Shown one piece after another: positions 22,207 to 41,392 of a stretch of 64,000 bases of DNA (its first letter is position 1; every line of letters begins with the position of its first letter). This DNA is from Fonticella tunisiensis (GTDB taxonomy: Bacteria; Bacillota; Clostridia; Clostridiales; Caloramatoraceae). Position numbers and translations under genes: made by a program. A model generated the notes under the pieces. The model had not been told where the DNA came from. It was given only the letters and a program-made list of their open reading frames with translations, and did not search any database. The DNA is taken from the NCBI RefSeq assembly GCF_004364155.1, contig NZ_SOAZ01000009.1:1-64000 (forward strand). Direction: 5' to 3'.

Positions 22207-22254
22207 AGATGCAAAGCTCTTTGCTACCGAAAAGTAACAAAGAGCTTTGCATCT
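22207..22254. terminator. Bidirectional terminator between convergent surface genes
   Basis: Perfect 17-bp arms AGATGCAAAGCTCTTTG / CAAAGAGCTTTGCATCT around a 14-nt loop. Confidence 0.88.
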
Positions 22255-24058
22255 ATACGGTCCCTGCCAGGATGTTTCTCATCATTTCTATCCCCTCAGC
22301 ATCAATCCTGTCGAAAATTTTTATGGATCTTATCAGCTCATTGTATGCCATCTGGTAGAAGCCGTTCACATAATAAAGCTTCGCAAGGCCTAAAAGCACT
22401 TCATCACTTTCTATAAGGTTTAAAAATTGAAGTGCTTTTTCAAATATATCGAATTCGGATATTTTAAGCAGAATGTTTAAAAGGTCTAAAATTATGCTTA
22501 AGTATTCTCTGGATTCATCCTTATCAGCGCTAACGGGTTTGCAGTTTTTCCCTTCCATAATTTCTTTGAAGGTTTTATAGACAAGTACTGTTTTATTTCC
22601 TATAATCTCTTTATCTTTGCTTAGAAGCCTTGCAGCCCTTCTTGTATTGTTTGTTAGTATATGGCTTAAAAAAAGTTTGTTTATAGCTCTTTGATAAAAT
22701 TCCCCGGATTTTATTTTTTTATAACACTCTATGGCTTTGTTAAAGTTCTTCAAATAAAAGAGACAGGTTCCCTTGTAGTATAAAATTTCCGGTGACTGGC
22801 CCATGAGTTTTTCAGCCTTTGTTATATATTCATATGCTATGTCATATTTTCTCTGTTTATAAAACACATTGGAGAGAGCCATGCAGGCTCTGCCGTCCAA
22901 CCTTCCTCCAAACAAATCTTCAAGGGCAGATTTTATATAGTCAATATCCATGTTTCTCTCATACTTTTTAAAGAGTGCCTCAGCGATTATATAAAGGCAT
23001 GGAGTATATCCTGGATTTAATTTCAAGGCTTCGATGCAGCATTTGTAGGCTTCATCATAGTCCTTCATATCCAGGTATATTTCAGATAATGCGCAGCAGG
23101 CTTTAAAGCTTCCTACGCCGGCCATGAGGGCTAAATTCGAAGGTGGTTCCCCCATTTCAATACATCTTTTAAATGATTTAATTGCAAGTGTAAATTTGTT
23201 TTGCCTGTGGTACAGGCATGCCTTTAAAAATTCAAGGTCGGTGAAATTCTCATAAATCCCGAGCCCTAAATTGATTATTTCCATTTCTTTATCGTACATT
23301 TCAAGTTCATCAAAACATATTGCCATCCTTGCAAGCAAATGGGGGCTGTACCCTGTGTCAGGGTTGAAGTTTTCATAGGTTTTCATGTAATATTCAAGGG
23401 CCTTTGAAAAATCTTTTAGTGCCAGGTACTCATTTCCCATGCAGAAAAATAAAAACTTGTTATCCTTTTCAAGCTCCAATGACTTTTCAAGAAGCTCAAT
23501 ATTCCTTCTACGCTTATTTTTTTCCGATACAGTTTTATTTAGGTATCCATAGTGATAAAACTTTATCCTTGCCGTTTCAATCCTGGCATCTTTGTTAACA
23601 GCCATTATATTGCATGCTATTTGTTCATGAACTGTCCCCAAAAATCTGTATTCCTTCTTGTTCTTTATAAGCCTTACATTCAGGTTCATAACGATATCAT
23701 ATCCCGGCCTATCCCCTACAAAGCTCAGGGTTTCCATGAAATATGCGTCAACGCCATCCTTTTTTGTAAGATCGATAAGTTTTTGAGCATCCTCCCTTAC
23801 AAACTCATCATCGGCATCCATTATTAAAATCCAGTCCCCTGATGCCTTTTCAAGAGAAAAATTTCTTGCGTCACTAAAATTGTTGTTCCATTCAAAATAA
23901 TATACCTTTGCACCATAGCTTTCAGCGATTTTAACCGTTGAATCCGTTGAACCGGTATCAACTACTATCATTTCATCAACGACGTCTTTGATGCTTTCAA
24001 GGGCTCTTCCTATATTTTCTTCTTCATCCTTTGCAATCATACAAAGGCTTATTGACAT
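22253..24058 (-). CDS. GT2 glycosyltransferase with C-terminal TPR repeats (copy 1)
   Basis: N-terminal GT-A family 2 domain (about 1-230): SLCMIAKDEEENIGRAL, VVDTGSTDSTVKIAE and the DxD motif LIMDADDEF. A long helical C-terminus of about ten TPR-like repeats (about 230-600) follows. This architecture is common in Gram-positive protein glycosyltransferases that modify repeat proteins. The start at 24058 follows GGGGG; a longer reading frame would overlap the upstream DUF6385 gene in another frame. It is very similar over its whole length to the gene at 39590-41392. Cytoplasmic, last gene of the long minus-strand cluster. Confidence 0.88.
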   Translation of the reverse strand: MSISLCMIAKDEEENIGRALESIKDVVDEMIVVDTGSTDSTVKIAESYGAKVYYFEWNNNFSDARNFSLEKASGDWILIMDADDEFVREDAQKLIDLTKKDGVDAYFMETLSFVGDRPGYDIVMNLNVRLIKNKKEYRFLGTVHEQIACNIMAVNKDARIETARIKFYHYGYLNKTVSEKNKRRRNIELLEKSLELEKDNKFLFFCMGNEYLALKDFSKALEYYMKTYENFNPDTGYSPHLLARMAICFDELEMYDKEMEIINLGLGIYENFTDLEFLKACLYHRQNKFTLAIKSFKRCIEMGEPPSNLALMAGVGSFKACCALSEIYLDMKDYDEAYKCCIEALKLNPGYTPCLYIIAEALFKKYERNMDIDYIKSALEDLFGGRLDGRACMALSNVFYKQRKYDIAYEYITKAEKLMGQSPEILYYKGTCLFYLKNFNKAIECYKKIKSGEFYQRAINKLFLSHILTNNTRRAARLLSKDKEIIGNKTVLVYKTFKEIMEGKNCKPVSADKDESREYLSIILDLLNILLKISEFDIFEKALQFLNLIESDEVLLGLAKLYYVNGFYQMAYNELIRSIKIFDRIDAEGIEMMRNILAGTV

Positions 24059-24119
24059 CCCCCATACCCCCTTATATGGTATGTTTGGGCTATCGGTTTT
24101 AATCGATAGCCCAATATCA

Positions 24120-24848
24120 TTATCTATGGGCATTGTAAAATACTTCAAAGCTTCCTGCTGTGGATCCGGTGTCGAAATACAGCCTCGTGTATCTAAGATA
24201 TTTAACAGTTGCCAGTGTAACCTTTCCAGTAGATGCTGCAACAAGAGTTTCTGTGCTGTCATCTACAAAGTAATCCTCAGTGTTAACGGGAGCTATTTGA
24301 AGTTTTACTGAAACTGCTCCTGCGCCGGTGTTCCTTACATAGAAGGAATATATTACATCCTGGGAGTTGTCAATTGTAAAGGCAATACCGGTACCTGTTG
24401 AAGTTATAACTGCACTTGCTGAAGTAAATACTGCACCGCTGGAAATAGTACCTACAGTGTCTGTACCCTGTGTAAGGCTTCTGATATTGAAGTTGTTTGC
24501 ACTTACGCTTACAGTATCGGTACTTACTGACAAGCTTCTTATGCTGAAGTTGTTTGCGCTCACACTTACTGTGTCAGTGCTTACTGTAAGAGGCCTGATA
24601 TCAAAGCTGTTTGCGCTTACGCTTACCGTATCGGTGCTTACTGTAAGAGGCCTGATATCAAAGCTGTTTGCACTAACGCTTACTGTATCGGTACTTACCG
24701 ACAGGCTTCTTATGCTGAAGTTGTTTGCGCTTACGCTTACTGCACCGTTTGCATCCAAACTAAGAGACTGCAGATTTGCACCGTTTAATCCATACACCAG
24801 TACTTTTAACTGACTGGCGACATCATTAAAGACTAGATTATTAGGCAT
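24120..24848 (-). CDS. Repeat-containing DUF6385-like surface protein, 242 aa
   Basis: Begins MPNNLVFNDVASQLKVLVYG, then carries about five 19-residue repeats (consensus DTVSVSANxFxIRxLxVST, residues about 34-128) and a C-terminal beta domain ending SFEVFYNAHR like the two DUF6385-like proteins nearby. Rich in Ser, Thr, Val and Asn, with many possible O-glycosylation sites. No signal peptide or anchor. It lies 61 bp upstream of a GT2-TPR gene, which suggests enzyme and acceptor. Likely a repetitive beta structure on the cell or spore surface; function inferred. Confidence 0.75.
   Translation of the reverse strand: MPNNLVFNDVASQLKVLVYGLNGANLQSLSLDANGAVSVSANNFSIRSLSVSTDTVSVSANSFDIRPLTVSTDTVSVSANSFDIRPLTVSTDTVSVSANNFSIRSLSVSTDTVSVSANNFNIRSLTQGTDTVGTISSGAVFTSASAVITSTGTGIAFTIDNSQDVIYSFYVRNTGAGAVSVKLQIAPVNTEDYFVDDSTETLVAASTGKVTLATVKYLRYTRLYFDTGSTAGSFEVFYNAHR
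24454..24747 (-). repeat. 57-bp in-frame tandem repeat
   Basis: Five copies of a 57-bp unit encode the 19-residue repeats of the 24120-24848 protein. By protein sequence, the two central units (DIRPLTV) are identical and are flanked by two SIRSLSV units, a mirror-like order that suggests recent segmental duplication. Confidence 0.85.
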
Positions 24849-25217: not shown

Positions 25218-26408
25218 TCATCTCTTAAAGAAACTGTCAAAAACATCCTTTATTTTGTTCAGTTCATCCTTTCCCAGGCCGTGGTGGCATCCAATATAAA
25301 AACCGCTTCTGTTAATCCATTTTGCGACGGGATAGTCATCCTCAATATTTCCGAAAATCCTTTTATATACCGGTTGATTTAAAAGCGGAAGCATAGGCCT
25401 TGTCTCGATATTGTTTTTTTCCAAAAATCTCGTAAGCTCATCCCTTGTAAAGGTACTGTTTTTTCTCACAACGATTGGATACATCATAAAGGTATGGTCT
25501 ATATAGTCATTGAATTCCGGAAGCTGCAGCACGTCGGAGTATTTTTTAAGGGCTTCTGTCAGATAGCGGGCGTTTTCTTTTCTTTTGGACATAATTTCAC
25601 CTACCCTTTCAAGCTGCGCAAGGCCCAGGGCTCCTTCAATCTCCCCTATCCTGTAGCTGTAGCCAAGCCTTACAAACAAAAACCTTCTATCCATTTCCGT
25701 ATTCATTCTCTTTGGACAAACCATCCTGGGATCTGAAGCAATGCACTTTTCACATGTACAGTCCCTGCCGTGGGCAATTAAGGATCTGGCTATTTCCATA
25801 TATGTCCTGTCATTGGTTATGATTATTCCACCAATGCCTGTAGTTATGGTGTGGGCCACATAGGTGCTGGATGCTGCTAGACTTCCAAAACTTCCAACAG
25901 GCTGATTTTTGTATTTTGCAAAATGGGCTTCGGCACAGTCTTCAATCACCTTTAAATTGTATTTTTTAGCGATTTCCATTATTTCATCCATTTCACAGGG
26001 CTGCCCGAAGGTGTGTACAGGAATAATGGCCCTAGTGTTTTCGTTTATGTGTTTTTCGATTTCTGCAGGGTTTATATTGTAAGTTTTTTCATCCACATCT
26101 ACAAAAACGGGTTTAAGCCCTGCCTGAATACAGGCGTTTGAGGTGGCTATAAATGTTACTGCAGGAACCAGTACCTCCGTATTTGAATTCCAGTTTTCCA
26201 CTTCCTTTAATATCTCAAGGGCCACATGAAGTGCTGCAGTGCCACTGCTGCACATGATTCCATATTTTTGATTGTGCAGCCTTGCAAACTCCTTTTCAAA
26301 TTTTGCCACGTAGCTGCCCTGTGACAGCCTCTCACTTTCAAGGGCATCCATTACGTATTTTTTTTCAAGCTCTGTTATAGATGCACAGCCAACTCCTATT
26401 TTATTCAT
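25218..26408 (-). CDS. DegT/DnrJ-family PLP protein with His for Lys, ColD-like 3-dehydratase candidate
   Basis: Fold-type I sugar PLP enzyme (396 aa) with SSGTAALHVAL and the usual EDCAEAH. At the Schiff-base position the sequence is STYVAHTITTGIGG, so His186 replaces Lys. This is the mark of 3-dehydratases such as ColD (GDP sugars) and RfbH/E1 (CDP sugars), not of aminotransferases. A cysteine cluster C217, C219, C222, C231 follows, with C217/C219 at the same offset from the His as two Fe-S cysteines of RfbH. Next to Gmd and a fucose-synthase-like gene, it may make GDP-4-keto-3,6-dideoxymannose. Activity and Fe-S content are unproven. Confidence 0.82.
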   Translation of the reverse strand: MNKIGVGCASITELEKKYVMDALESERLSQGSYVAKFEKEFARLHNQKYGIMCSSGTAALHVALEILKEVENWNSNTEVLVPAVTFIATSNACIQAGLKPVFVDVDEKTYNINPAEIEKHINENTRAIIPVHTFGQPCEMDEIMEIAKKYNLKVIEDCAEAHFAKYKNQPVGSFGSLAASSTYVAHTITTGIGGIIITNDRTYMEIARSLIAHGRDCTCEKCIASDPRMVCPKRMNTEMDRRFLFVRLGYSYRIGEIEGALGLAQLERVGEIMSKRKENARYLTEALKKYSDVLQLPEFNDYIDHTFMMYPIVVRKNSTFTRDELTRFLEKNNIETRPMLPLLNQPVYKRIFGNIEDDYPVAKWINRSGFYIGCHHGLGKDELNKIKDVFDSFFKR

Positions 26409-27389: not shown

Positions 27390-27420
27390 GACGCTGCGAT
27401 AAAAATATATGAATTCATAC
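27390..27420. repeat. Solo terminus of the GATAAAAAATATAT palindromic element
   Basis: GACGCTGCGATAAAAATATATG matches an end of the 185-bp elements at 46370 and 49940. It lies in the gap at the 3' end of gmd and just overlaps its stop codon. Confidence 0.5.
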
Positions 27421-28440
27421 TTTCTTCAGGTCTGCCTCCATCATTATTTTTACAAGCTCCTCGAAGGTAACCCTGGGCTGCCAGCCAAGTTCCTTCCTGG
27501 CCTTTGATGGATCCCCTATTAGCAGGTCTACTTCAGTGGGTCTAAAATACCTCGGGTCAATCTCAACCACCACTTTACCCGTTTTAGAATCATAACCCTT
27601 TTCGTCTTCCTCCTTTCCCCTCCACTCAATATCGATACCAACGTATTTAAAGGCCTTTTCACAGAATTCCCTTACAGTATGGGTTTCCCCTGTGGCAATT
27701 ACATAGTCTTCTGCCTTTTCCTGCTGAAGCATAAGCCACATAGCTTCAACGTAATCCTTTGCATAACCCCAGTCACGCATGGCGTTTAAGTTGCCAAGGT
27801 AGAGCTTTTCCTGCTTTCCCTTTGCAATTCTGCATGCTGCCTTTGTAATCTTCCTCGTTACAAAGGTTTCACCGCGCCTTGGAGATTCGTGGTTGAAGAG
27901 TATTCCATTACATGCATACAGGCCGTAGGCTTCCCTGTAGTTTTTGGTTATCCAGAAGGCATAAAGTTTTGCCGCTGCATAGGGGCTCCTTGGGTAAAAG
28001 GGTGTCGTCTCCTTCTGGGGGATTTCCAAAGCCTTTCCATAGAGTTCGCTGGTTGAGGCCTGATAAAACCTTGTTTTTATTTTGGTATCCTTTATGGCGT
28101 CAAGTATCCTGAGGGTACCAAGTGCATCAACTTCAGCCGTGTATTCCGGTATATCAAAGGACACCTTAACATGGCTCTGTGCAGCTAGATTATATATTTC
28201 ATCAGGGTTTATACTATAAATCAACCTGCTTAGATTGCTGGAGTCCGTCATGTCTCCATAATGGAGAATGAGTTTCAGGTTCTTTTCGTGTATATCCTGA
28301 TATAGATGTTCTATTCTTCCAGTGTTAAAGGAACTTGAACGCCTGATTATTCCGTGTACTTCATAACCCTTCTCAAGAAGCAGTTCGGCAAGATATGATC
28401 CGTCCTGACCTGTAATTCCTGTGATTAGTGCTCTTTTCAT
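27415..28440 (-). CDS. gmd: GDP-mannose 4,6-dehydratase
   Basis: Converts GDP-D-mannose to GDP-4-keto-6-deoxy-D-mannose, the entry to fucose, colitose, rhamnose-D and perosamine. Sequence hallmarks: [25 protein letters not shown] split by the glycine-rich NADP site, [16 protein letters not shown] catalytic Tyr/Lys, and [16 protein letters not shown]. Length of 341 aa is standard. GGAGG lies 7 bp upstream of the ATG. Gmd feeds the fucose-synthase-like and ColD-like neighbours and probably the GT10 domain encoded immediately upstream. Confidence 0.95.
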
Positions 28441-28468: not shown

Positions 28469-30487
28469 TTAAATTGAGCTTATAATTCCTTCTACAACTG
28501 TATTTACAAAATTCTCTGCGCTAAAGAGGCGTATTTTTTCACTTTTGAGGTAGTTTTTTATTGCTTCAATGTATCCCATGTATTCATCGTCTGGCATGTT
28601 TTTAATATGGCTGTAGAGCTCTTCGTAGGTTGCAAATTTTCGCCTGTCGATGAATGTGTTTTCAGGAACATAATCGGTTATGTTGGGCGCTCCAAGATAG
28701 ATTGGGACACAGCCTGCGAAGAAGCAGTCAAAGATTTTTTCTGTTATATATCCTCTTATATCCCTGACGTTTTCATAGCATATGGAAAACTTATATTTCT
28801 TTAATACATCGTATTTTGATTCTATTCTTCCTTTATACGAAGGGTAATCATTACCATCTATAATCCTTCCGTCCCTTGAATATATGCTTTTATCCCAGTC
28901 CATCCCGTATAAATCGAATTCTTCGGGATGGTTATTTTCAAACCATCGGATGGCTTTAATCCTTTCGCTATATAGTTCCTGTTCATGGAATACAAGCTTA
29001 TGCCCTGCAATTAGGGTGCAAAATCCCCTTTTGTCTTCTATATTGAAATCAATCGTATCAGGAATTTTGTTTGGCCAGAAGTATTTGATGTATTTTTTAC
29101 CGTCCACATAGTCGTCATGCCATACAAATATCTTTTTAAAGTATTTATGATTTTCCACAAGCCAGTTATCGGGGCGTATAAGACTTGTTTCAAAGAGAAT
29201 CAAAAAGTTATTATCAAGCCTCTGCAGGCTTTGAGGCATGTCGCTGTATATTACAAATTCTGAAGCTGCAATATCGTTTATGTCGTGAGTATTTAGTTCA
29301 TAACCTTTTTCTTTAAGCTTTTCCCTCAAGAGATACCAGTGATAGAGACAATTGTCTCTGTTGGATATTTTATCATTTAAATCGAACATTCTGTTCCTGC
29401 AGAAAAAATCAACCGTTTGGATAGCTGCCTTTTTAAGGGCAGGTTTATCGGCATCTGCTGCCTTTTTTCTCCTCGTTCTGTGCTTTTTGCTATTATTCAT
29501 AATTGTTTCAAATGCTTTTTTCAAAACCGAAGTATATGTGTAATCCCTTGCCCTCTTATGGGATGCTTTTAAAATTTCCATCCTCTTATTTTCATTTTTG
29601 AGATAATATCTTATATTTAACTCCAGTTCATCGATGCTGCTAAATATTGCAATTTCCTTTCCTATATCAAAATAATCCTCAAGGCCCGGAGCGTACTGAG
29701 ATAGCTGGAAGCCTCCAAAGCATGGAATTTCAAAATTCCTGGCCTTTATTTGTTCCACCCTCTTGCTGCTTCTCATGTATTCATCGATGTTTTTCTCGTC
29801 ATCAAGGATGTACCTTATGTCCTTTGATACGGAGTTTGACAGGTTAAGGTTTATCTTTGAGTGCAGTATTATTTGTTTTATGTCCTCGTAGGATACCCTT
29901 CCATTTGGCCACCCTGCACCAAAACATTCAACGTTGTAGCCCCTTCTCCTTAAGTAATTAACGGCCCAGGCCCTTGAACTGCTTATACCTCCTATAAATG
30001 AGATGTCGTATTTATAATCTATATTTTCAAAGTCTATATTATCTACATAGTCGTAGGAGGCCCATTGAGAAAGGACTACATTGCTGTATCCTATTTCACT
30101 GTATTTGTCAAGGCTGTATTTATCAGTGGTTATGGACCATCGCAGCCTGGGTGCTGTGTATTTTGTAAAGCTGTCAAACCTCCAGTTGTCATCACAAAAC
30201 CAGTTGATTGTGATATATTTCTTCGAAAGTTTTTCTATGGTTTCAAGGGCAACCTCATCCCTCATCAGCACAAAAAAAACTATGTCAGGGTTCTCCCTTT
30301 TAACAAAACTTATTATCTCCCTTTGAAGTGATTCCTTATCATTTGGAAAACCGTGCTCCTCAAGCCAGAAGGGGACAACCTCCTCTCCTATATTTTTTAA
30401 AGCCGGAAGAAACCCCCTCTTTTCAAGGGATTCTCCCCTTTCGGCTATTCCATAGTCGTATTTAAGCATTACGGGAACTATTTTCAT
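28469..30487 (-). CDS. Two-domain glycosyltransferase: CgeB-like plus GT10 fucosyltransferase-like
   Basis: 672-residue fusion. Residues 1-330 resemble CgeB-type glycosyltransferases ([47 protein letters not shown]), a family first named from B. subtilis spore maturation. Residues about 365-672 match GT10 alpha-1,3-fucosyltransferases: [35 protein letters not shown] and [14 protein letters not shown]10 enzymes use GDP-fucose or close analogues, in line with Gmd and Fcl-like genes directly downstream. No membrane segment or signal peptide, so it acts in the cytoplasm. Confidence 0.85.
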
Positions 30488-30605: not shown

Positions 30606-31925
30606 TCAACGCAAATTCATAAACTCGTCAACTGCACTTGACATATAATCCAGCATTTCTTCGGTTAATCCCGGGTAGACTCCTATGAAGAAGGCCCTCT
30701 CGAGTATGGCGTTTGTGTTGTTAAGCTCTCCCTCTATCCTGCAGTTTATATTCTTATAGGCAGGATGCTTTAATATATTTCCTGCAAAGAGCATCCTTGT
30801 TTCTATAAGCTTCGATTCAAGATAGGCGATAAACTCCTTTCTTGTAAAGCCTGCATCTTCCCGTATGGTAAGGGGCAGCGCAAACCATGAGGGCTCGGCT
30901 TCCTTTAACCACCTTGGAAGTATAAATTTACTCTCATATTTTTTGAAAAGGTTGTAGAGATGGTTAAAGTTGTGCTTCCTTCTTTCCGTAAAGGAGGGAA
31001 GCTTTTTTAACTGCTCTATTCCCATGGCGCATTGGATATCAAGGGGTTTAAGGTTGTATCCTACGTTGCTGTAGACATATTTATGATCGTATCCTTCCGG
31101 AAGCCCTTCAAATTTATAATCAAACCTGTGGCCGCAGGCACCGCTTGGATTTTCCTCCCCGGTCTGACAGAAGCATGCCCGGCCCCAGTCCCTTATAGAA
31201 AGTACCTGTTTGTAAAGCTCATAATTATTGGTAAGGACAGCTCCCCCTTCACCCATCGTAATGTGATGGGCGGCATAGAAGCTGAAGGTTGACATATCGC
31301 CGAAGGTTCCGCAGAGCTTTCCCTTAAACCTTGAGTCCAGGGCATCGCAGGTATCCTCAATGACATAAAGATTGTATTTTCCTGCTATGTCCATTATTTT
31401 GTCCATATCCGCAGGGTTTCCCAGGGTATGAGCAAAGAAAATGGCCCTTGTTTTTTGGGAGATTGCCCTTTCTATCATTTCCGTGTCAATGTTGTACGTA
31501 CCCTCTTCAACATCCACAAATACGGGTGTCAGCCCATTTTGAAGGATGGGGTTAAGGGTAGTTGGAAAGGTTAAAGCTGTTGTTATTACTTCATCCCCCA
31601 TCCTTAGAGGTTTTCGGATATTTTTGGAGCAAAGGGCGCTTAAGGCAAGCAGGTTCGCAGAGGAGCCGGAGTTCGTTACAACCCCGTATTTCATTCCCAT
31701 ATACTCTGTGAAATCCTTTATAAACTCCCTTCCCCTTTTTCCCAGGGTGAGCCAGAAGTCAAGAACAGAATCCACAGCAGCTTTCATTTCCTTTTCATCA
31801 AATACCCTGCCTGAATAGTGGATCCTTGTTTTGCCGGGAATAAACTTTTTATTTTGTTCCCTTATCCTGTAAAGCTCATGTACCAAATCCAAAATTTCCT
31901 TTCTTATCTCACTTTCAGTTTTCAT
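30606..31925 (-). CDS. rfbH: CDP-4-keto-6-deoxyglucose 3-dehydrase (E1)
   Basis: PLP and [2Fe-2S] enzyme of 3,6-dideoxyhexose synthesis. FYAAHHITMGEGG places His220 at the Schiff-base position. Cys193 (EDTC), Cys251 and Cys253 (ACFC) fall at exactly the numbering of the known E1 Fe-S ligands; the fourth, Cys264, is three residues later than in E1. Length of 439 aa fits. The AAAGGTG ribosome site is upstream. No dedicated E3 reductase gene is seen in the window, so the electron donor must be a general ferredoxin or flavodoxin system or lie elsewhere. Confidence 0.93.
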   Translation of the reverse strand: MKTESEIRKEILDLVHELYRIREQNKKFIPGKTRIHYSGRVFDEKEMKAAVDSVLDFWLTLGKRGREFIKDFTEYMGMKYGVVTNSGSSANLLALSALCSKNIRKPLRMGDEVITTALTFPTTLNPILQNGLTPVFVDVEEGTYNIDTEMIERAISQKTRAIFFAHTLGNPADMDKIMDIAGKYNLYVIEDTCDALDSRFKGKLCGTFGDMSTFSFYAAHHITMGEGGAVLTNNYELYKQVLSIRDWGRACFCQTGEENPSGACGHRFDYKFEGLPEGYDHKYVYSNVGYNLKPLDIQCAMGIEQLKKLPSFTERRKHNFNHLYNLFKKYESKFILPRWLKEAEPSWFALPLTIREDAGFTRKEFIAYLESKLIETRMLFAGNILKHPAYKNINCRIEGELNNTNAILERAFFIGVYPGLTEEMLDYMSSAVDEFMNLR

Positions 31926-32006
31926 TTCATATCACCTTTAAAATTACTGATTTAATTCTTACAGAGCCATTAATCTAACCTGTTCTGTTTTGCTGCAAAC
32001 AATCGG

Positions 32007-32068
32007 AGATAAAAAATATATGAAATTCACATAAAGCATGCAATTGGAAGTTCCAGGCGAAGGAGTAT
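32007..32068. repeat. Truncated copy of the 185-bp palindromic element
   Basis: About 55-60 bp from GATAAAAAATATATG onward match the left part of the copy at 49940 with few changes, then similarity stops just before the transketolase-like gene. The other end is missing. Confidence 0.8.
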
Positions 32069-32076
32069 TACGACTA

Positions 32077-33003
32077 TTATACTGACTTCATAGTTTCTAT
32101 TATGCTCTTCAATACTCCATCCCTGTTTATCCCATATTTCTTCCTGAAATAAGAGCTGCTTCCGGCCGAATCGGCATATACATCGGGAATTCCAAATGGC
32201 TTAAAGATAAAGGGTTTTGTTATATTCCCTGCAACAACCTCCGAAACAGCTCCTCCAAGCCCACCTATTATACTGTGTTCCTCAATAGTAAAAATAGCCC
32301 TTGTTTCATGGATGCATTCCTTTATAATTTGTTCATCTATGGGCTTTATGGTGTGCATGCTTATAAGTTTTACTCCATATCCAATTCCTATTAATTCCCT
32401 GGAAACCTCAATCGCCTCCTCCAGCATGTTTCCTGTGGCTATTATTGATATATCCCTTCCCTCCATCATCTTTATGGCTTTTCCGATTTTAAAGTCTGCA
32501 TCGTCACTGTGGAGCCTTGGCTCCCCATTTTTGCTAAGCCTGATGTATGACGGCCCTGAGAGGGAAATCACCTGCTCAACCGCCCTTTGAACTTCAAATG
32601 GGTCTCCGGGGCATATAACCTTCATGTTTGGAAGCGACCTCATAATCGAAATGTCCTCTATGGCATGGTGGGTTGCTCCGGAGCTTCCGTAGCTTAATCC
32701 TCCTCCGACTCCAACGAGGCATACGTTTAAATTTTGATAACAAAGATCGTTTCTTATCTGTTCAAAACATCTCATTGTCAGAAATGGTATTATTGAGTAT
32801 ACGAAAACCCTTTTCCCAACCATTGCAAGGCCCGCTGCAGTGCCTATCATATTGGCCTCGCTTATTCCGGCGTTTATAAACCTCTCTCCAAACTCCTTCT
32901 GAAACCCTTCAAATACTGAAAAGCCAAGGTCCCCTGTAATTAAATAAAGCTCTTTATCCTGCCTTGCCATTTTCGTTAATGTATTTATAAAGGTACTTCT
33001 CAT
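32077..33003 (-). CDS. Split transketolase-like enzyme, C-terminal subunit
   Basis: 308-residue protein with the transketolase pyrimidine-binding domain. AGISEANMIGTAAGLAMVGKR contains the catalytic Glu, and a C-terminal domain follows from about residue 190. It is the partner of the N-terminal subunit encoded directly upstream (start and stop codons abut). Placed between rfbH and an SDR gene rather than with pentose-phosphate genes, it is likelier to transfer a two-carbon unit to a nucleotide sugar than to serve central metabolism; that role is inferred. Confidence 0.88.
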   Translation of the reverse strand: MRSTFINTLTKMARQDKELYLITGDLGFSVFEGFQKEFGERFINAGISEANMIGTAAGLAMVGKRVFVYSIIPFLTMRCFEQIRNDLCYQNLNVCLVGVGGGLSYGSSGATHHAIEDISIMRSLPNMKVICPGDPFEVQRAVEQVISLSGPSYIRLSKNGEPRLHSDDADFKIGKAIKMMEGRDISIIATGNMLEEAIEVSRELIGIGYGVKLISMHTIKPIDEQIIKECIHETRAIFTIEEHSIIGGLGGAVSEVVAGNITKPFIFKPFGIPDVYADSAGSSSYFRKKYGINRDGVLKSIIETMKSV

Positions 33004-33822
33004 TTAATCCAACTCCTTTAGGGCCCTTTGAAACTGCTCTTCATTTGTGGACCTGTAGTGCCATTCAAGCCTGTTTTCCATAAATGAAACCCCTCTTCCT
33101 TTTATGGTTCTGGCAATGATTGCAGTTGGAAAATCTAAACTCCCATATGCCGTGATTAGTGCGTCATATATTTCACTTACGTTGTGTCCATCTATCTCAA
33201 TTACGTTCCATCCAAAGGCTTTCCATTTCTCCCCTATAGGTTCAAGGGCTGTTATTTCATCCACTTTTCCAAGGCCCTGGAGTTTGTTGTTGTCGATTAC
33301 AGCTATAAGGTTGTTAAGCCTTTTTTGTGCTGCAAACATAGCTGATTCCCATACCGAGCCTTCATTACATTCCCCATCCCCCATTAAAACAACAGTTCTG
33401 GCATTTATATTTGAATGCTTATCCCCCAGGGCAATCCCACACCCCATTGAAAGTCCATGTCCAAGGGATCCCGTAGAGCATTCTATGCCGGGGAGGCTGT
33501 CCTTTTTTGGGTGTCCTGAAAGGGCGGAACCATCCCTGCAGTATGAATCAAGGATGCCTTTATCGAAAAAGCCCCTTTCTGCAAGGACAGCATAGAGGCC
33601 TGAAGCCCCATGTCCCTTGCTCAGTATGAATTTATCCCTCAAAGGGCTTTTTGCAGTTTCAGGGGCTATATTCAATATCTTAAAATATAGAACTGTAAGT
33701 ATATCCATCATTGATAGCGCCGATGCCACGTGGGAACTTCCTGATTTATGTGCCATTGTCACGACGGCCTTTCTTAACTCACTGGCCTTATTTTTTAAAA
33801 ATTCTATTTCCCTATCCCTCAT
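33004..33822 (-). CDS. Split transketolase-like enzyme, N-terminal TPP subunit
   Basis: 272-residue ThDP-binding half of a transketolase. Signature LSKGHGASGLYAVLAERGF, SLGHGLSMGCGIA and the TPP motif GDGECNEGSVWE...DNN. Its ATG immediately follows the stop of the upstream SDR, and its own stop abuts the C-terminal subunit, so the three are translated together. The split arrangement is known for transketolases of archaea and of many sugar-biosynthesis clusters. Confidence 0.9.
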   Translation of the reverse strand: MRDREIEFLKNKASELRKAVVTMAHKSGSSHVASALSMMDILTVLYFKILNIAPETAKSPLRDKFILSKGHGASGLYAVLAERGFFDKGILDSYCRDGSALSGHPKKDSLPGIECSTGSLGHGLSMGCGIALGDKHSNINARTVVLMGDGECNEGSVWESAMFAAQKRLNNLIAVIDNNKLQGLGKVDEITALEPIGEKWKAFGWNVIEIDGHNVSEIYDALITAYGSLDFPTAIIARTIKGRGVSFMENRLEWHYRSTNEEQFQRALKELD

Positions 33823-34767
33823 TTACATTCCCTCATACAAATCAATATTGTTTTTAAACCATTCAATGGTTTTCCTGACTCCTTCCCTTAGGGTGAACTT
33901 TGGCTCCCAGTTGAGCTCCTTTTTTACAAGGCTCATATCCGCCTCCCATTTGCTTGCCTGAACTTTCCTGTCCGGTAAAGCTCCCCATATGGGGGTCACC
34001 TTGGAACCTGACTCCTGAATTATCGTACTTGCCATTTCTTCAACGGTGTGCTGCTTGCCTAAGCCACAGTTATATATTTTTCCACTTAAACTTTTACATT
34101 CACTTAGTATTTTTGTAAGTTCAATCAAATCCTCTATGAAAATAAAATCACGAACGGCATTTTTATTTGAAAGCTTTGGATTCCTTCCCCTAAGGCATGA
34201 AAGCACTACACTCGGAACGAGCCTGGTTTTATCCTCATAATATCCAAAAAGTGAGAAGGGCCTTATGGTTGCAATGGGCAGATTAAAAGTTCTTGCAGCC
34301 ATCTGACAATATAAAGATTGAGAAGCCTTTGCAAACCCATAGGTGTTTACGGGCTCAAGGACATCCGTCTCTTTCATAGGCTCATTTTTTATGCCATATT
34401 CTGAGGAGCTTCCAAAGTTTATAAAGGATTTGAAATCAACTTTTAAACATGCGTTTACCAAATTAACGGTTCCAATTATGTTTGTGTTTATAATTTTTTT
34501 TGCATCCTCCTGATAGTAATATGCTCCGTATGCAGCTAAATGAAAAATATATTCGGGTTTTATTTTACTTAGTGCCTTATCTATGCTGTATTCATCACAA
34601 ATATCGGCCTCGAAAACCCTTATTTCCTTTATAATCCTTTTCAGTCTCCACATATTAGAGGTACTTCTTGCGATTATGTTTACCTCATAGCCTTCCTTAA
34701 CAAGGTTTTCAGCCAAACATGCACCTGCAAAACCGGCAGCTCCGGTTATCAACGCTTTTTTAGACAT
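33823..34767 (-). CDS. NAD-dependent epimerase/dehydratase (extended SDR), NDP-sugar
   Basis: SDR of 314 aa with ALITGAAGFAGACL (NAD site), FGSSSEYG and YGFAK (catalytic Ser, Tyr, Lys), and C-terminal PKFTLREGVRKTIEWF typical of nucleotide-sugar SDRs. The ATG at 34767 overlaps the end of rfbG by 8 bp and is preferred over GTG 34797. Placed between RfbG and the transketolase pair, it may reduce or epimerise a keto sugar at a late step, as YerF does in yersiniose synthesis. Exact reaction unknown. Confidence 0.85.
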   Translation of the reverse strand: MSKKALITGAAGFAGACLAENLVKEGYEVNIIARSTSNMWRLKRIIKEIRVFEADICDEYSIDKALSKIKPEYIFHLAAYGAYYYQEDAKKIINTNIIGTVNLVNACLKVDFKSFINFGSSSEYGIKNEPMKETDVLEPVNTYGFAKASQSLYCQMAARTFNLPIATIRPFSLFGYYEDKTRLVPSVVLSCLRGRNPKLSNKNAVRDFIFIEDLIELTKILSECKSLSGKIYNCGLGKQHTVEEMASTIIQESGSKVTPIWGALPDRKVQASKWEADMSLVKKELNWEPKFTLREGVRKTIEWFKNNIDLYEGM

Positions 34768-35863
34768 GTCCCTCCCCCTTACCCTCAATTTTTTCACAAT
34801 ATCTTTTTATCTGGCTGCAGCACAGCTTATAAATATCAGCCCTTTGAATAAGTCCTTTGTACCACTCAACAGTTAGATCAGCTGCCTCATCTATGTTTAG
34901 AACCGGATTCCAATTAAGACAGGTTTTTGCCTTTGTACAGTCAAGCATCAGAAGTTGTGATTCATGTGGAGCCTTTTCATCATTCAGACATATATATCCT
35001 CCATTTCCCCATTTTTCTATTATAATGTTTACAATCCTTTCAACAGTTACCACAGAGTTGAAATCAGGGCCGAAGTTCCATGGCCCGCTGTAGCTTATGC
35101 CTTCTTCACACATTTTAGATGCGAGAAGCAAATACCCGTATAATGCCTCTAAAACGTGCTGAAAGGGGCGTATGGCCATCGGGTTTCTTATCTTAATGGG
35201 CCTGCCCTCCATCAGGGCCCTTATACAGTCAGGTATAATCCTATCCTTTGACCAGTCTCCCCCTCCTATTACATTTCCCGCTCTGGCAGTGGCCAAGGCC
35301 TTACCATGACATGAGAAATCCTTCGGGTTCATAAATGAGCTTCTGTATGATGCAGTTAAAAGTTCTACACAGGCTTTGCTGGAGCTATATGGGTCATATC
35401 CTCCCAGGGGGTCATCTTCCCGGTACCCCCATATCTGTTCCCTGTTTTCATAGCATTTGTCAGTAGTTACGATGATTCCTGCCCGAACTGAGTCCGTTTT
35501 TCTTATACATTCAAGTACGTTAAGGGTTCCCATTACATTCACTTCATAGGTTTCCTTTGGGATTTCATAGGACTTTCTTACAAGCGGCTGAGCTGCAAGA
35601 TGGAACACTATTTCAGGACTAAACCTTTCAAATACCTCCATCAGCCCTTTATCGTCCCTTATGTCCCCCCTGACATCTATCATCCTATCCTTAAGGTTTG
35701 AAACCAAAAAATTGTCCTTATCGGTACAGGGATTAAGCCCATAGCCTATAACATATGCCCCGAGTTCCATAAGAAAGATCGAAAGCCATGAACCTTTGAA
35801 GCCCGTATGCCCTGTAATTAGCACCCTTCTGCCTTCATATATATTGTTAAACAGCCTATTCAT
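34760..35863 (-). CDS. rfbG: CDP-glucose 4,6-dehydratase
   Basis: Makes CDP-4-keto-6-deoxyglucose, substrate of RfbH. Markers are [35 protein letters not shown], the [18 protein letters not shown] block with catalytic Tyr/Lys, and [13 protein letters not shown], all strongly RfbG-like. The ATG at 35863 overlaps the rfbF stop (ATGAATAG), and a longer upstream reading would lack a proper site. 367 aa. Confidence 0.95.
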
Positions 35864-36635
35864 TTTGTTTCCATACCTCCCATGGGGCCCTTCCGGAAGT
35901 GTAAAGCTCCTCAAGCTTCATTTTGTCCCTGAGGGTATCCATAGGCATCCAGAAGCCTTCATGCTTATAGGCTGAAAGCTGCCCCATCCCTGCGAGCCTC
36001 TCAAGGGGTTCCCTTTCCCATGCCGTTTTATCACCATCTATGAGGCCGAAGATTTGGGGTTCAAGTACAAAAAATCCTCCGTTAATCCAGCTGCCTTCCC
36101 CCTGGGGTTTTTCTTTAAACCTTCTAACCTTATTTCCTTCAAGCTCCAAAACCCCGAACCTCTCCGGCGGTTTAACGGCGGTAAGTGTAGCCCATGTTCC
36201 TTGAAGCCTGTGAAATTCTATCAGCTTTGATATATCAACATCGCTAACTCCATCACCATATGTCAAACAAAAGGTTTCACTGCCTACATAGCTCTGCACC
36301 CTTTTCAGCCTTCCTCCCGTTAAGGTGTCTTTACCTGTATCTATTAACGTTACCTTCCATGGCTCACATCTGTGGCTGTGGATATCCATTTTGTTTTCCT
36401 TCATATCGAATGTAACTCCTGACTGGTTTAAAAAGTAGTTTGCAAAATATTCCTTAATCATATATCCTTTATATCCAAGGCATATTATGAAGTCGTTTAT
36501 TCCATAGTGGGAATATATCTTCATAATATGCCATAGAATAGGGCGCCCACCTATTTCAACCATTGGTTTGGGTTTAATTAAGGTTTCTTCGCTTAACCTG
36601 CTTCCATATCCTCCTGCAAGAATTACTGCTTTCAT
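35856..36635 (-). CDS. rfbF: Glucose-1-phosphate cytidylyltransferase
   Basis: First committed step of CDP-dideoxyhexose synthesis: glucose-1-phosphate plus CTP to CDP-glucose. N-terminal [18 protein letters not shown] with [20 protein letters not shown] is the nucleotidyltransferase signature of RfbF, and [11 protein letters not shown] holds the metal-binding Asp. 259 aa as usual. It starts the rfbFG-SDR-transketolase-rfbH series; 86 bp separate it from the upstream GT2 gene. Confidence 0.95.
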
Positions 36636-38138: not shown

Positions 38139-39419
38139 TCATCTTCCACCGCCTTTCAAAACATCAAGGGCTTCAAAGGCCCCGATCACCATGTTATCCT
38201 TATACTCCATAAACTCCTTCTCAAGGAGATCTATAGAATTCTTCCAGGTGTACATCTTTGCAGTTTCAAGCCCTTTTTCAATTAATCTCTTCCTGAGGTT
38301 TCTGGATTTTAAAAGCATCTTTATCTTTTCAATTAGCTGATCAACATTTCCTGCCTGATACATGAGGCAGTTTTCATTATCCACAGCGTATTCCTTTACC
38401 CCCTCATTTGATGTTGTAATAACTGCCGTACCACATGCCATTGCTTCAAGTGGAGGAAGTGAGAAGGCCTCGTAGTATGACCCTGAAATATATATTTCCG
38501 AATGTCTGTAGAGCCAGCCAATTTCATCCTGTGTTGGGCAGACATGATATGCAATATTAATCCCTGTCCCTCTAAAGTCCTTTTCAGGGAGTACTGGAAT
38601 AATCCATTTTACTTTAAATTTATACCCTTCCTTTTTCAAATGGTAGAGGGCTTTAATTATATCCTCATGACCTTTGAATTTCAGCGCATCGCTTCCAACC
38701 AGGAGTATTTCAGGAGGGTTGTTGCCCCTGTTTTTCCCTGCGTAAAAAATGCCTTCATCAATTGCATTTGGTATCAGTACAGACTCTCTGCCATACAGCT
38801 CCTTCAGCCTTTTTTGCATGATCTTCGACACTGTTAGGATTTTTACAGGGAGAGAATGGGCTGTTGTCACAGCATTTTTAAAATAATCGGGCAGGGTGTC
38901 ATATTCAAATATATCTATATCACCCTGGGCTATATAATATTTCATTGGGGCTTCTGCTTTCATGACATCTGCAATCAAATCCCAGTAGCCTGCAATTATT
39001 AAATCAATTCCGGATACCATTTCATAGAGGTCTCTGTCAGATGGTACCTTAAAATATCTGCATTTAACATCAAGCCACTCCGGTCTTGGAAAGTGGCTGT
39101 AGAGCACAACGTTGTGCCCCCTGGTATAGAGATTGTTAGCCTGTTCTATAAGAATTTTGTATCCGCCGGTAATCAGATTATGTGGAAGAAGGTATCCAAT
39201 ATTTAAGTGTTTTTTTTCTTTAAGATATTCAAATTTTATGAAGGAATGTCTATATCCCATGGATTCCAGCTTTTTTATGCTGGAATTAATTTTTCCTTCA
39301 TCCTTATCTATTAAACCTGTGTTTAAATCATAAATAGGGTGTCTATTATTACAAATACTTAGAAGCTCGCCCATTCTTTTGCTTGCATATTCTTCCTTCA
39401 ATTTCTGATAGTCAATCAT
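38139..39419 (-). CDS. GT4-family glycosyltransferase
   Basis: GT-B fold retaining glycosyltransferase (426 aa). LNIGYLLPHNLITGGYK is an N-terminal GT4 start, LIPNAIDEGIFY precedes the second Rossmann domain, and YYEAFSLPPLEAMACGTAVITT is the EX7E nucleotide-sugar motif. No membrane helix. First gene of the 17-kb minus-strand glycan cluster; a CATATTATA box lies about 50 bp upstream of the start. Confidence 0.9.
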   Translation of the reverse strand: MIDYQKLKEEYASKRMGELLSICNNRHPIYDLNTGLIDKDEGKINSSIKKLESMGYRHSFIKFEYLKEKKHLNIGYLLPHNLITGGYKILIEQANNLYTRGHNVVLYSHFPRPEWLDVKCRYFKVPSDRDLYEMVSGIDLIIAGYWDLIADVMKAEAPMKYYIAQGDIDIFEYDTLPDYFKNAVTTAHSLPVKILTVSKIMQKRLKELYGRESVLIPNAIDEGIFYAGKNRGNNPPEILLVGSDALKFKGHEDIIKALYHLKKEGYKFKVKWIIPVLPEKDFRGTGINIAYHVCPTQDEIGWLYRHSEIYISGSYYEAFSLPPLEAMACGTAVITTSNEGVKEYAVDNENCLMYQAGNVDQLIEKIKMLLKSRNLRKRLIEKGLETAKMYTWKNSIDLLEKEFMEYKDNMVIGAFEALDVLKGGGR

Positions 39420-39589
39420 GCCACCACATCCTTACCTGTGTCAAAATTACATCGTACATTCTCCTTTATATAATATGCTGGGATTTTTTTTGTGTAGACT
39501 TTATACGACAAAAACAAATAAACAAAAATTGTCATATTATGTATAAGGGTTTGGATAGGGTGTGTTCTAATATAAAGGGGGCGATTGGA
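39420..39589. promoter_or_regulatory. Divergent control region with two sporulation-like -10 boxes
   Basis: Between the GT4 and GT2-TPR genes. The minus strand has CATATTATA (39469-39477) and the plus strand CATATTATG (39533-39541). With the similar box at 24917, these resemble the sigma-K -10 consensus CATAnnnTA. No sigma-A promoter with standard spacing is evident here. Tentative. Confidence 0.4.
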
Positions 39590-41392
39590 GTGTCTTTAAG
39601 TTTATGCATGATCGCAAAAAACGAGGAAGAAAATATAGGAAGGGCTCTAGAGAGCGTTAAGGATATCGTTGACGAAATGATTGTAGTAGATACGGGTTCA
39701 ACGGATTCAACGGTTAAAATTGCAGAAAGCTATGGCGCAAAGGTATATTATTATGAATGGAATAACAACTTCAGCGATGCAAAGAATTTTGCCCTTGAAA
39801 AAGCAGCGGGAGACTGGATTTTGCTGATGGATGCCGATGATGAACTGGTAAGGGAAGATAAACAAAAGCTTCTGGATTTACTAAAAAATGCGGATTATGA
39901 TGTGTATTTCATGGATACTTTAAGTTTCGTTGGAGATAGGCCGGGAAACGACATCGTTATGAATATAAACGTAAGGCTTATAAGAAATGGAAAGGGAATT
40001 AAGTTTTCAGGTGCCATACATGAGCAAATAGGCCCAGGCTCGGGTGGAACTGTTGAAGATTTAAAGATGAGGTCTGAAAGGATAAGGTTTAACCATTATG
40101 GATATTTAAATAAGAATGTAGTAGATAAGAATAAGAGAAGAAGAAATATAGAGATCCTTGAAAAAGAGCTTGAAAATGACAATAATAACGGCTTTTTACT
40201 TTTTGGTATGGGCAATGAGTATTTTGCCCTTCACAACTTTGAGAAGGCCCTTGAATATTATAATAAAGCCTATGAAAACTTTAAACCCGATCTGGGATAC
40301 AGTCCAAAGCTTATCATAAGGATGGTAATGACCCTTCATGAGCTTAAGAAATATGATGAAGAACTGGATATGATTGAAAAGGGCCTTAAATATTTTCCAG
40401 ACTTTACTGACCTTGAATATTTAAGGGCTTGCTTATTTCACAGGTTGGGAAGGTATACCCTTGCCATCAAGTCCCTTGAAAAATGTATAAACCTTGGAGA
40501 GCCTAAATCCTATTTAAACTTTATTGTAGGCGTTGGAACCTTTAAGCCATATCATGCGCTTGCTGAAATTTATTTTGATATGGGTGATTATCAGGAAGCC
40601 TATAATTGCTGCATAAAGTGTTTAAAAATAAAGCCTGATTTCTATCCATGCTTCGAAAAAATTGCTCAAATATATTTTAAGGCAGACGATAGAAATAAGG
40701 AGATGGATTATATAAAAAGACAGCTTGAAAGCTTATTTAATGGGAATCTGGATGGTCCGGCCTATCTCACCCTTGGGGATGTTTTTTTCAGCCATGGGAG
40801 GTATGACATTGCTTACGACTATATAATCAAGGCCGGAGAATTTCTGGAGGAAACAGAAACAATATCTTTTTACAAGGGTATGTGTTTGTTTCATATGAGA
40901 AACTATCGAGAAGCTCTAAAATATTTTAAGAAAGTTAAATCAGGAGAATTTTATGAGAAAGCCCTATATAAAATGGTTATGTGCGAGGTTTTTGAAAATA
41001 AAATGAACGCTGCTGAAAATCTTCTTAATAAAGCAAAGGAGTTTACTAACGATAGGGTTAGGCATGTTTATAAAACATTTAAAAGCCTGGTTGAGGGCAA
41101 GATGTGTAAAACTATAAGTTCTGACAGAGTAGAATCTACAGTGTATTTGAATATAATTTGCGATTTGCTTAATACCCTTCTTAAGGTGTCAGAGTTTGAA
41201 ATATTTGAAAAATCCCTTCAGCTTCTAAACCTCATTGAAAGCGATGAGGTGCTGCTCAGGCTTGCAAAGATTTATTATGTAAATGGTTTTCAGGAAATGG
41301 CCTTTAAGGAATTCATTAGATCAATAAAGGTATTTGATAAAATCGATATTGAAGGGCTTGATATGATGAAGAAAATTGTATTAAAGGTTTAA
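39590..41392 (+). CDS. GT2 glycosyltransferase with C-terminal TPR repeats (copy 2)
   Basis: Paralogue of the gene at 22253-24058, same length (600 aa). The GT2 domain has SLCMIAKNEEENIGRALES, VVDTGSTDSTVKIAESYGAK and LLMDADDEL, followed by many TPR-like helices and an identical-looking end (LLNLIESDEVLL, AKIYYVNGF). The GTG at 39590 is 8 bp from AAGGGGG; longer frames lack a site. It is divergent from the rest of the cluster. Probably a protein glycosyltransferase acting on a cytoplasmic acceptor. Confidence 0.88.
   Translation: MSLSLCMIAKNEEENIGRALESVKDIVDEMIVVDTGSTDSTVKIAESYGAKVYYYEWNNNFSDAKNFALEKAAGDWILLMDADDELVREDKQKLLDLLKNADYDVYFMDTLSFVGDRPGNDIVMNINVRLIRNGKGIKFSGAIHEQIGPGSGGTVEDLKMRSERIRFNHYGYLNKNVVDKNKRRRNIEILEKELENDNNNGFLLFGMGNEYFALHNFEKALEYYNKAYENFKPDLGYSPKLIIRMVMTLHELKKYDEELDMIEKGLKYFPDFTDLEYLRACLFHRLGRYTLAIKSLEKCINLGEPKSYLNFIVGVGTFKPYHALAEIYFDMGDYQEAYNCCIKCLKIKPDFYPCFEKIAQIYFKADDRNKEMDYIKRQLESLFNGNLDGPAYLTLGDVFFSHGRYDIAYDYIIKAGEFLEETETISFYKGMCLFHMRNYREALKYFKKVKSGEFYEKALYKMVMCEVFENKMNAAENLLNKAKEFTNDRVRHVYKTFKSLVEGKMCKTISSDRVESTVYLNIICDLLNTLLKVSEFEIFEKSLQLLNLIESDEVLLRLAKIYYVNGFQEMAFKEFIRSIKVFDKIDIEGLDMMKKIVLKV

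Follow-up and report, generated by a model that had tools for sequence, protein, structure and literature searches.

The window analysed here, a stretch of 64,000 nucleotides from Fonticella tunisiensis, contains an intact open reading frame (the target) that reads from 26408 to 25218 on the minus strand, encodes 396 amino acids and has AAAGGAG ahead of its ATG. The product matched PF01041 with 331.5 bits against a gathering cutoff of 19.8, which places it in the DegT/DnrJ/EryC1/StrS fold family, and its top PDB sequence match was E1 (3bcx). The features of the locus are given below; clades A and B are groups of relatives defined in the next section.

25218..26408, minus strand: target, predicted PMP-dependent GDP-4-keto-6-deoxy-hexose 3-dehydrase with a four-cysteine loop, 396 aa (PF01041, 3bcx match, AF2 model)
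25689..25760, minus strand: cysteine loop C217-x-C219-x2-C222-x8-C231-x2-R234-x5-D240, predicted to bind Fe-S and unchanged throughout clades A and B
25851..25853, minus strand: codon of His186, in place of the Schiff-base Lys (codon checked)
25932..25937, minus strand: C158-A159, of which A159 aligns with the E1 ligand C193
26430..27371, minus strand: GDP-fucose-synthase-like SDR, candidate GDP-colitose synthase or C5-epimerase-C4-reductase (NF047922, PDB matches)
27415..28440, minus strand: GDP-mannose 4,6-dehydratase, gmd (TIGR01472, 615 bits against a cutoff of 415)
28469..30487, minus strand: two-domain glycosyltransferase with a GT10 (fucosyltransferase-type) C-terminal part (PF13524 and PF00852)
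30606..31925, minus strand: true RfbH/E1 (CDP-sugar 3-dehydrase), used as internal reference (NF011936, 616 bits against a cutoff of 423)

The gmd and SDR genes are separated by 43 bases and the SDR gene lies 21 bases from the target, all on the same strand. The SDR scored 247 bits with NF047922, under the cutoff of 500, and its PDB matches were GDP-fucose synthases. Judging from its position, the glycosyltransferase possibly transfers the product of the dehydrase pathway, a colitose-like sugar. The true RfbH carries C193, H220, C251, C253 and C264, a complete set of Fe-S ligands.

The original prediction read the target as a ColD-like protein in which His186 replaces the Schiff-base Lys and in which C217, C219, C222 and C231 form a cluster of the RfbH kind. 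Inspection of each codon confirmed these residues (C217 at 25758-25760, C219 at 25752-25754, C222 at 25743-25745, C231 at 25716-25718, all on the minus strand). C217 and C219 follow His186 by 31 and 33 residues, and these offsets, as predicted, are identical in E1 (His220; Cys at 192, 193, 251, 253, 257 and 261 in the 3bcx sequence) and in the true RfbH of the window. It was also correct that the first E1 ligand is displaced by one residue: C158 (25935-25937) aligns with E1 C192, and A159 (25932-25934) with the ligand C193. The residue before the catalytic His is Ala185, as in E1; it is Ser in 5/5 ColD sequences.

An AF2 model of the target, computed from an alignment without one plasmid-derived row, had a mean pLDDT of 93.3, with only moderate confidence in the loop (block means of 71-74, residues 221-240). 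Foldseek query-normalised TM-scores were highest with E1 (0.90), followed by ColD (0.87) and GDP-perosamine synthase (0.87).

Relatives and phylogeny of the target

Relatives were collected by a scan of genome contigs (80 loci) and of viral contigs (61 loci), with tblastn patterns that lay outside the Cys motif. Among 391 genomes of the class there was one relative at 65%; a plasmid of Solidesulfovibrio magneticus encodes a 39% relative with the same Cys pattern and Ala at 158. These sequences were aligned with ColD, E1 and perosamine synthase. Clade A, which contains the target, is confined to Bacillota and has the pattern CxCx2Cx8C (16 rows), as does clade B, which spans many phyla (37 Cys rows). 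Clade C (19 rows) has the His and an acidic loop without Cys; clade D (11 rows, mainly Omnitrophota) has the His and a deleted loop. The remaining rows were E1 (n=7), ColD (n=5) and Lys-type aminotransferases (n=17). His occupies position 186 in all rows of A (16/16), B (37/37), C (19/19), D (11/11), E1 (7/7) and ColD (5/5), and Lys occupies it in 17/17 aminotransferase rows.

The columns of the loop, of the His pair and of positions 158-159 were removed before a tree was computed. Clades A and C were sisters, D was nested inside B, and E1 and ColD were sisters, each with bootstrap/SH-aLRT support of 100/99. All Lys-type rows formed one separate clade; a larger tree was also built. AU tests rejected a grouping of A with ColD (p = 4e-5), of A with E1 (p = 3e-46), and a single clade of all Cys-loop rows, A with B (p = 9e-7). 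The target is thus neither ColD nor RfbH, and the Cys loop occurs in several lineages, each with a Cys-less sister. A tree with ColD, E1 and the perosamine synthases had been called for originally; it set the dehydrases apart from the Lys types but did not bear out the grouping with ColD. The label 'ColD-like' fails on this test and on the Ala before the His, where ColD has Ser, and 'intermediate type' does not fit a clade that is separate from both ColD and E1. By its sequence, the target belongs to a separate, previously undescribed branch that is widespread in anaerobes and carries a Cys set apparently suited to an Fe-S cluster.

Two viral sequences departed from the clade patterns. A long-branch row inside clade B (L152) lacks the Cys. 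A lone, deep-branching dehydrase on another viral contig (L116:5998-7137) carries both the C159 equivalent and a CxCx2Cx6C loop, and so has five candidate ligands, with GDMG in place of the usual GEGG; a search of viral contigs for its relatives found only itself. A Cys-loop member is present in each of four deep lineages, namely E1/ColD, A/C, B/D and L116.

The cysteine loop and its candidate fourth ligand

C217, C219, C222 and C231 are Cys in 16/16 clade A and 37/37 clade B rows, and only 48 of 396 columns are fully invariant across these 53 rows. A chance origin of the Cys set is discounted, as it is kept in two clades of a tree made without the loop. Of all 396 positions, just five, C217, C219, C231, R234 and D240, are constant throughout A, B and E1 but absent from C, D and ColD. 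All five lie within the loop, indicating that it acts as a single module, which also occurs in E1, a proven [2Fe-2S] enzyme (PMC8987622). The proposed homology of the site to that of RfbH is upheld by this module, GRxCxC...CxxR...D, which is common to the target and E1.

Two positions differ reciprocally. Position 222 is Cys in 53/53 rows of A and B and Gly in 7/7 of E1, while position 159, equivalent to E1 C193, is Ala in the same 53/53 rows and Cys in 7/7 of E1 and 5/5 of ColD. The fourth ligand therefore looks exchanged, and the alignment suggests that the sites of E1 and of clades A and B each have four Cys ligands and differ in the fourth. C158 was considered as an E1-type first ligand and rejected, because it is off by one and is absent from clade B; it is Cys in 16/16 clade A and Ala in 37/37 clade B rows, in keeping with the original description of it as an ordinary family residue. 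The main point of this analysis, absent from the original prediction, is that the family is large and conserved and that its fourth ligand is apparently exchanged.

With E1/RfbH (CDP-6-deoxy-L-threo-D-glycero-4-hexulose-3-dehydrase, 3bcx; [2Fe-2S], reductase E3) the target shares the fold, the His for Lys, the Ala before it and three aligned Cys (217, 219 and 231); of the four E1 cysteines (193, 251, 253 and 261), the first is replaced by Ala159, with C222 instead. The target further differs in its GDP context, its separate clade, the lack of an E3 gene in its genome and its score with the RfbH family NF011936 (275 bits against a cutoff of 423). With ColD (2gms, 3b8x; glutamate-dependent, no Fe-S) it has in common the His, the gmd and SDR neighbours and the predicted substrate, GDP-4-keto-6-deoxymannose. 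ColD, however, has a Ser-His-His motif (S187-H188) and no loop Cys in 5 rows, whereas the target has Ala185-His186 and four conserved Cys.

Predicted reaction, cluster and electron supply

In the majority of clade A loci the dehydrase gene is next to gmd and a gene for a fucose-synthase-like SDR, and the order gmd, SDR, target recurs; a further gene family, c6, is also frequent. In two Selenomonadales MAGs the SDR and dehydrase form a single uninterrupted ORF of 707-709 aa (L029:5592-7715; L034:8071-10200). The same gmd-SDR-dehydrase order was seen in bona fide ColD loci on plasmids. The neighbouring genes and the fusions point to a GDP-4-keto-6-deoxy-hexose 3-dehydrase. The original assignment as a GDP-sugar 3-dehydratase stands as to the His-type dehydrase and the GDP-sugar context, while the substrate is a prediction. 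The neighbours of clades B and D, an HddA-like kinase, an HddC-like guanylyltransferase and a GMD-like SDR, point to GDP-heptose.

Computation here showed the protein family, the active-site His, the conservation of the Cys module and its E1 homology, the separate clade and the gene context; the identity of the metal, its role in electron transfer, the substrate and the product are what we infer for the target. In our preferred reading, to which we give a probability of roughly two in three, it is a 3-dehydrase that depends on PMP and has as its substrate GDP-4-keto-6-deoxy-D-mannose or a closely similar sugar of the GDP-4-keto-6-deoxy type, with an Fe-S cluster at C217, C219, C222 and C231 that is fed by ferredoxin or flavodoxin. 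By analogy with E1 and ColD, PMP would form a ketimine at the sugar C4, His186 would take a proton of the cofactor and the C3 hydroxyl would leave, giving a 3,4-hexoseen intermediate. The cluster, probably [2Fe-2S], would then reduce the hexoseen, with a housekeeping ferredoxin or flavodoxin as the source of its electrons, a scheme already proposed for SpnQ; PMP would survive and glutamate would not be needed. Together, gmd, the 3-dehydrase and the SDR would make GDP-3,6-dideoxy sugars of the colitose type.

That the target is instead an ordinary DegT sugar aminotransferase, similar to GDP-perosamine synthase and with incidental extra Cys, is the least probable reading, and very improbable. 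It is a PF01041 member and GDP-perosamine synthases rank with E1 among its PDB matches, but His replaces the Schiff-base Lys in all 83 rows of the four related clades and the Lys-type rows all fall in one separate clade. Hardly more credible is a variant RfbH acting on the CDP-sugar made by RfbF and RfbG of the same cluster. Genes for RfbF, RfbG and the true RfbH do lie on the same strand at a distance of a few kilobases, and NF011936 is the best NCBIfam match of the target; this match nevertheless stays well below the cutoff, the target lies outside the E1 clade, a complete RfbH is already present, and the relatives of the target sit with gmd, usually without rfbF or rfbG.

A more serious alternative, though still an unlikely one, keeps the substrate and the dehydration but has a structural Zn, or else a cluster without redox function, bound by the four Cys, with PMP regenerated from glutamate as in ColD. 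The CxC-x2-C-x8-C spacing would also suit Zn, no dedicated reductase lies near the target, and both ColD and the Campylobacter jejuni GDP-sugar C3-dehydratases are glutamate-dependent and without Fe-S (PMC8987622; PMC10440746). Against this, three of the Cys together with R234 and D240 are common to the proven [2Fe-2S] enzyme E1 and were lost together in three Cys-less lineages, and the loop tracks genomes rich in POR and poor in COX1, which a structural Zn would not predict. With thresholds set after the matches had been seen, and lineages that are not independent, strong COX1 matches (E<1e-100) occurred in 0/14 genomes of A as compared with 8/14 of C, and in 6/33 of B as compared with 6/11 of D (overall 6/47 Cys-loop and 14/25 Cys-less sister-clade genomes, p = 2e-4), while POR_N (pyruvate:ferredoxin oxidoreductase) matches (E<1e-60) occurred in 43/47 Cys-loop and 7/25 Cys-less genomes (p = 5e-8), with the same direction in both sister pairs (A/C and B/D). 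When any COX1 match above the cutoff was counted, the overall difference gave p = 0.02 and that between B and D was not significant (p = 0.31). The association with COX1-poor, POR-rich genomes favours a redox Fe-S cluster over Zn, so that 'possibly Zn', as first suggested, becomes the weaker option.

Regarding the electron donor of the preferred Fe-S enzyme, the PF00970 profile found no E3 reductase in the genome of the target, and searches by family and sequence gave none in 14 clade A genomes and 4 weak matches in 33 clade B genomes. This would leave a general ferredoxin or flavodoxin as donor, as for SpnQ (PMC8987622). No ferredoxin, rubredoxin or 4Fe-4S gene recurred near clades A-D, and no ferredoxin or reductase gene adjoins the target clade. 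The true RfbH at 30606-31925, with its complete Fe-S ligands, resides in the same genome without an E3-type reductase (PF00970), and for this reason probably also uses a general donor. Clades C and D occur in the same pathways without the loop, indicating that the chemistry itself does not require a cluster.

Relation to known sugar 3-dehydrases and neighbouring operons

A review divides the characterised sugar 3-dehydratases into E1 (CDP-sugar, Fe-S), SpnQ (dTDP-sugar, Fe-S) and ColD (GDP-sugar, no Fe-S) (PMC8987622). SpnQ, a 3-dehydrase of spinosyn biosynthesis that was compared by description, uses PMP and a [2Fe-2S] cluster (PMC8987622), as proposed for the target, and differs in its dTDP-sugar substrate. 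The GDP-6-deoxy-4-keto-heptose C3-dehydratases of C. jejuni HS:5/HS:11, which make GDP-3,6-dideoxy-heptoses, are 62-67% identical to ColD and glutamate-dependent (PMC10440746), and are therefore of the ColD type. They deoxygenate C3 of a GDP-sugar, as predicted for the target, and are accompanied by the same GDP-heptose genes (hddA, hddC, gmhA) as clades B and D. A literature search, with subscription journals mostly outside its coverage, found no described Fe-S GDP-sugar 3-dehydratase. Such an enzyme would be a new combination, since the known GDP-sugar enzymes of this step lack a cluster, and it would break the division between Fe-S enzymes for CDP- and dTDP-sugars and non-Fe-S enzymes for GDP-sugars.

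It would also make a standing question testable, namely why one and the same dehydration can end either in reduction by way of a cluster or in a hydrolysis that costs the cofactor its amine. The loop-bearing and loop-free sister pairs in the same pathway (A/C and B/D) would serve as natural experiments for it, and the exchange of the fourth ligand amounts to a clear-cut prediction about the structure. Rather tentatively, and at somewhat less than even odds, an Fe-S enzyme may have been the ancestor of the sugar dehydrases that lack the Lys. ColD, C and D would have lost the cluster in parallel, mostly where exposure to oxygen is greater, with glutamate-driven turnover taking its place, and the fourth ligand would have moved between 159 and 222; the target would then represent a widespread, undescribed class of GDP-sugar 3-dehydrases driven by ferredoxin. 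Members of the family occur in many anaerobic phyla and are markers of probable 3,6-dideoxy sugars in their host organisms.

Several neighbouring arrangements were recorded. Operons of clades B and D (L024:5912-11008; L066, L071, L073, L079, L080 and others) repeatedly encode a B12-binding radical SAM protein of ~500 aa. This cluster comprises 36 loci and is accompanied by ThDP enzymes and GDP-heptose genes; the product is possibly a branched or methylated sugar derived from heptose. In the window, a minus-strand cassette at 30606-36635 encodes RfbF, RfbG, an SDR, a transketolase split into N and C halves, and RfbH, and matches Methylovirgula pHY1. Its enzymes may attach a two-carbon branch to a CDP-3,6-dideoxy-4-keto sugar, with transketolase instead of YerE; hydroxyacetyl transfer to keto sugars has been proposed for transketolases (PMC12247030). 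Two similar GT2-plus-TPR proteins of ~669 aa, encoded in opposite orientation at 22253-24262 (minus strand) and 39383-41392 (plus strand), flank the sugar cluster. A 57-bp tandem repeat of 4.7 copies lies at 24475-24742, inside the gene for a DUF6385 protein (24120-24848, minus strand).
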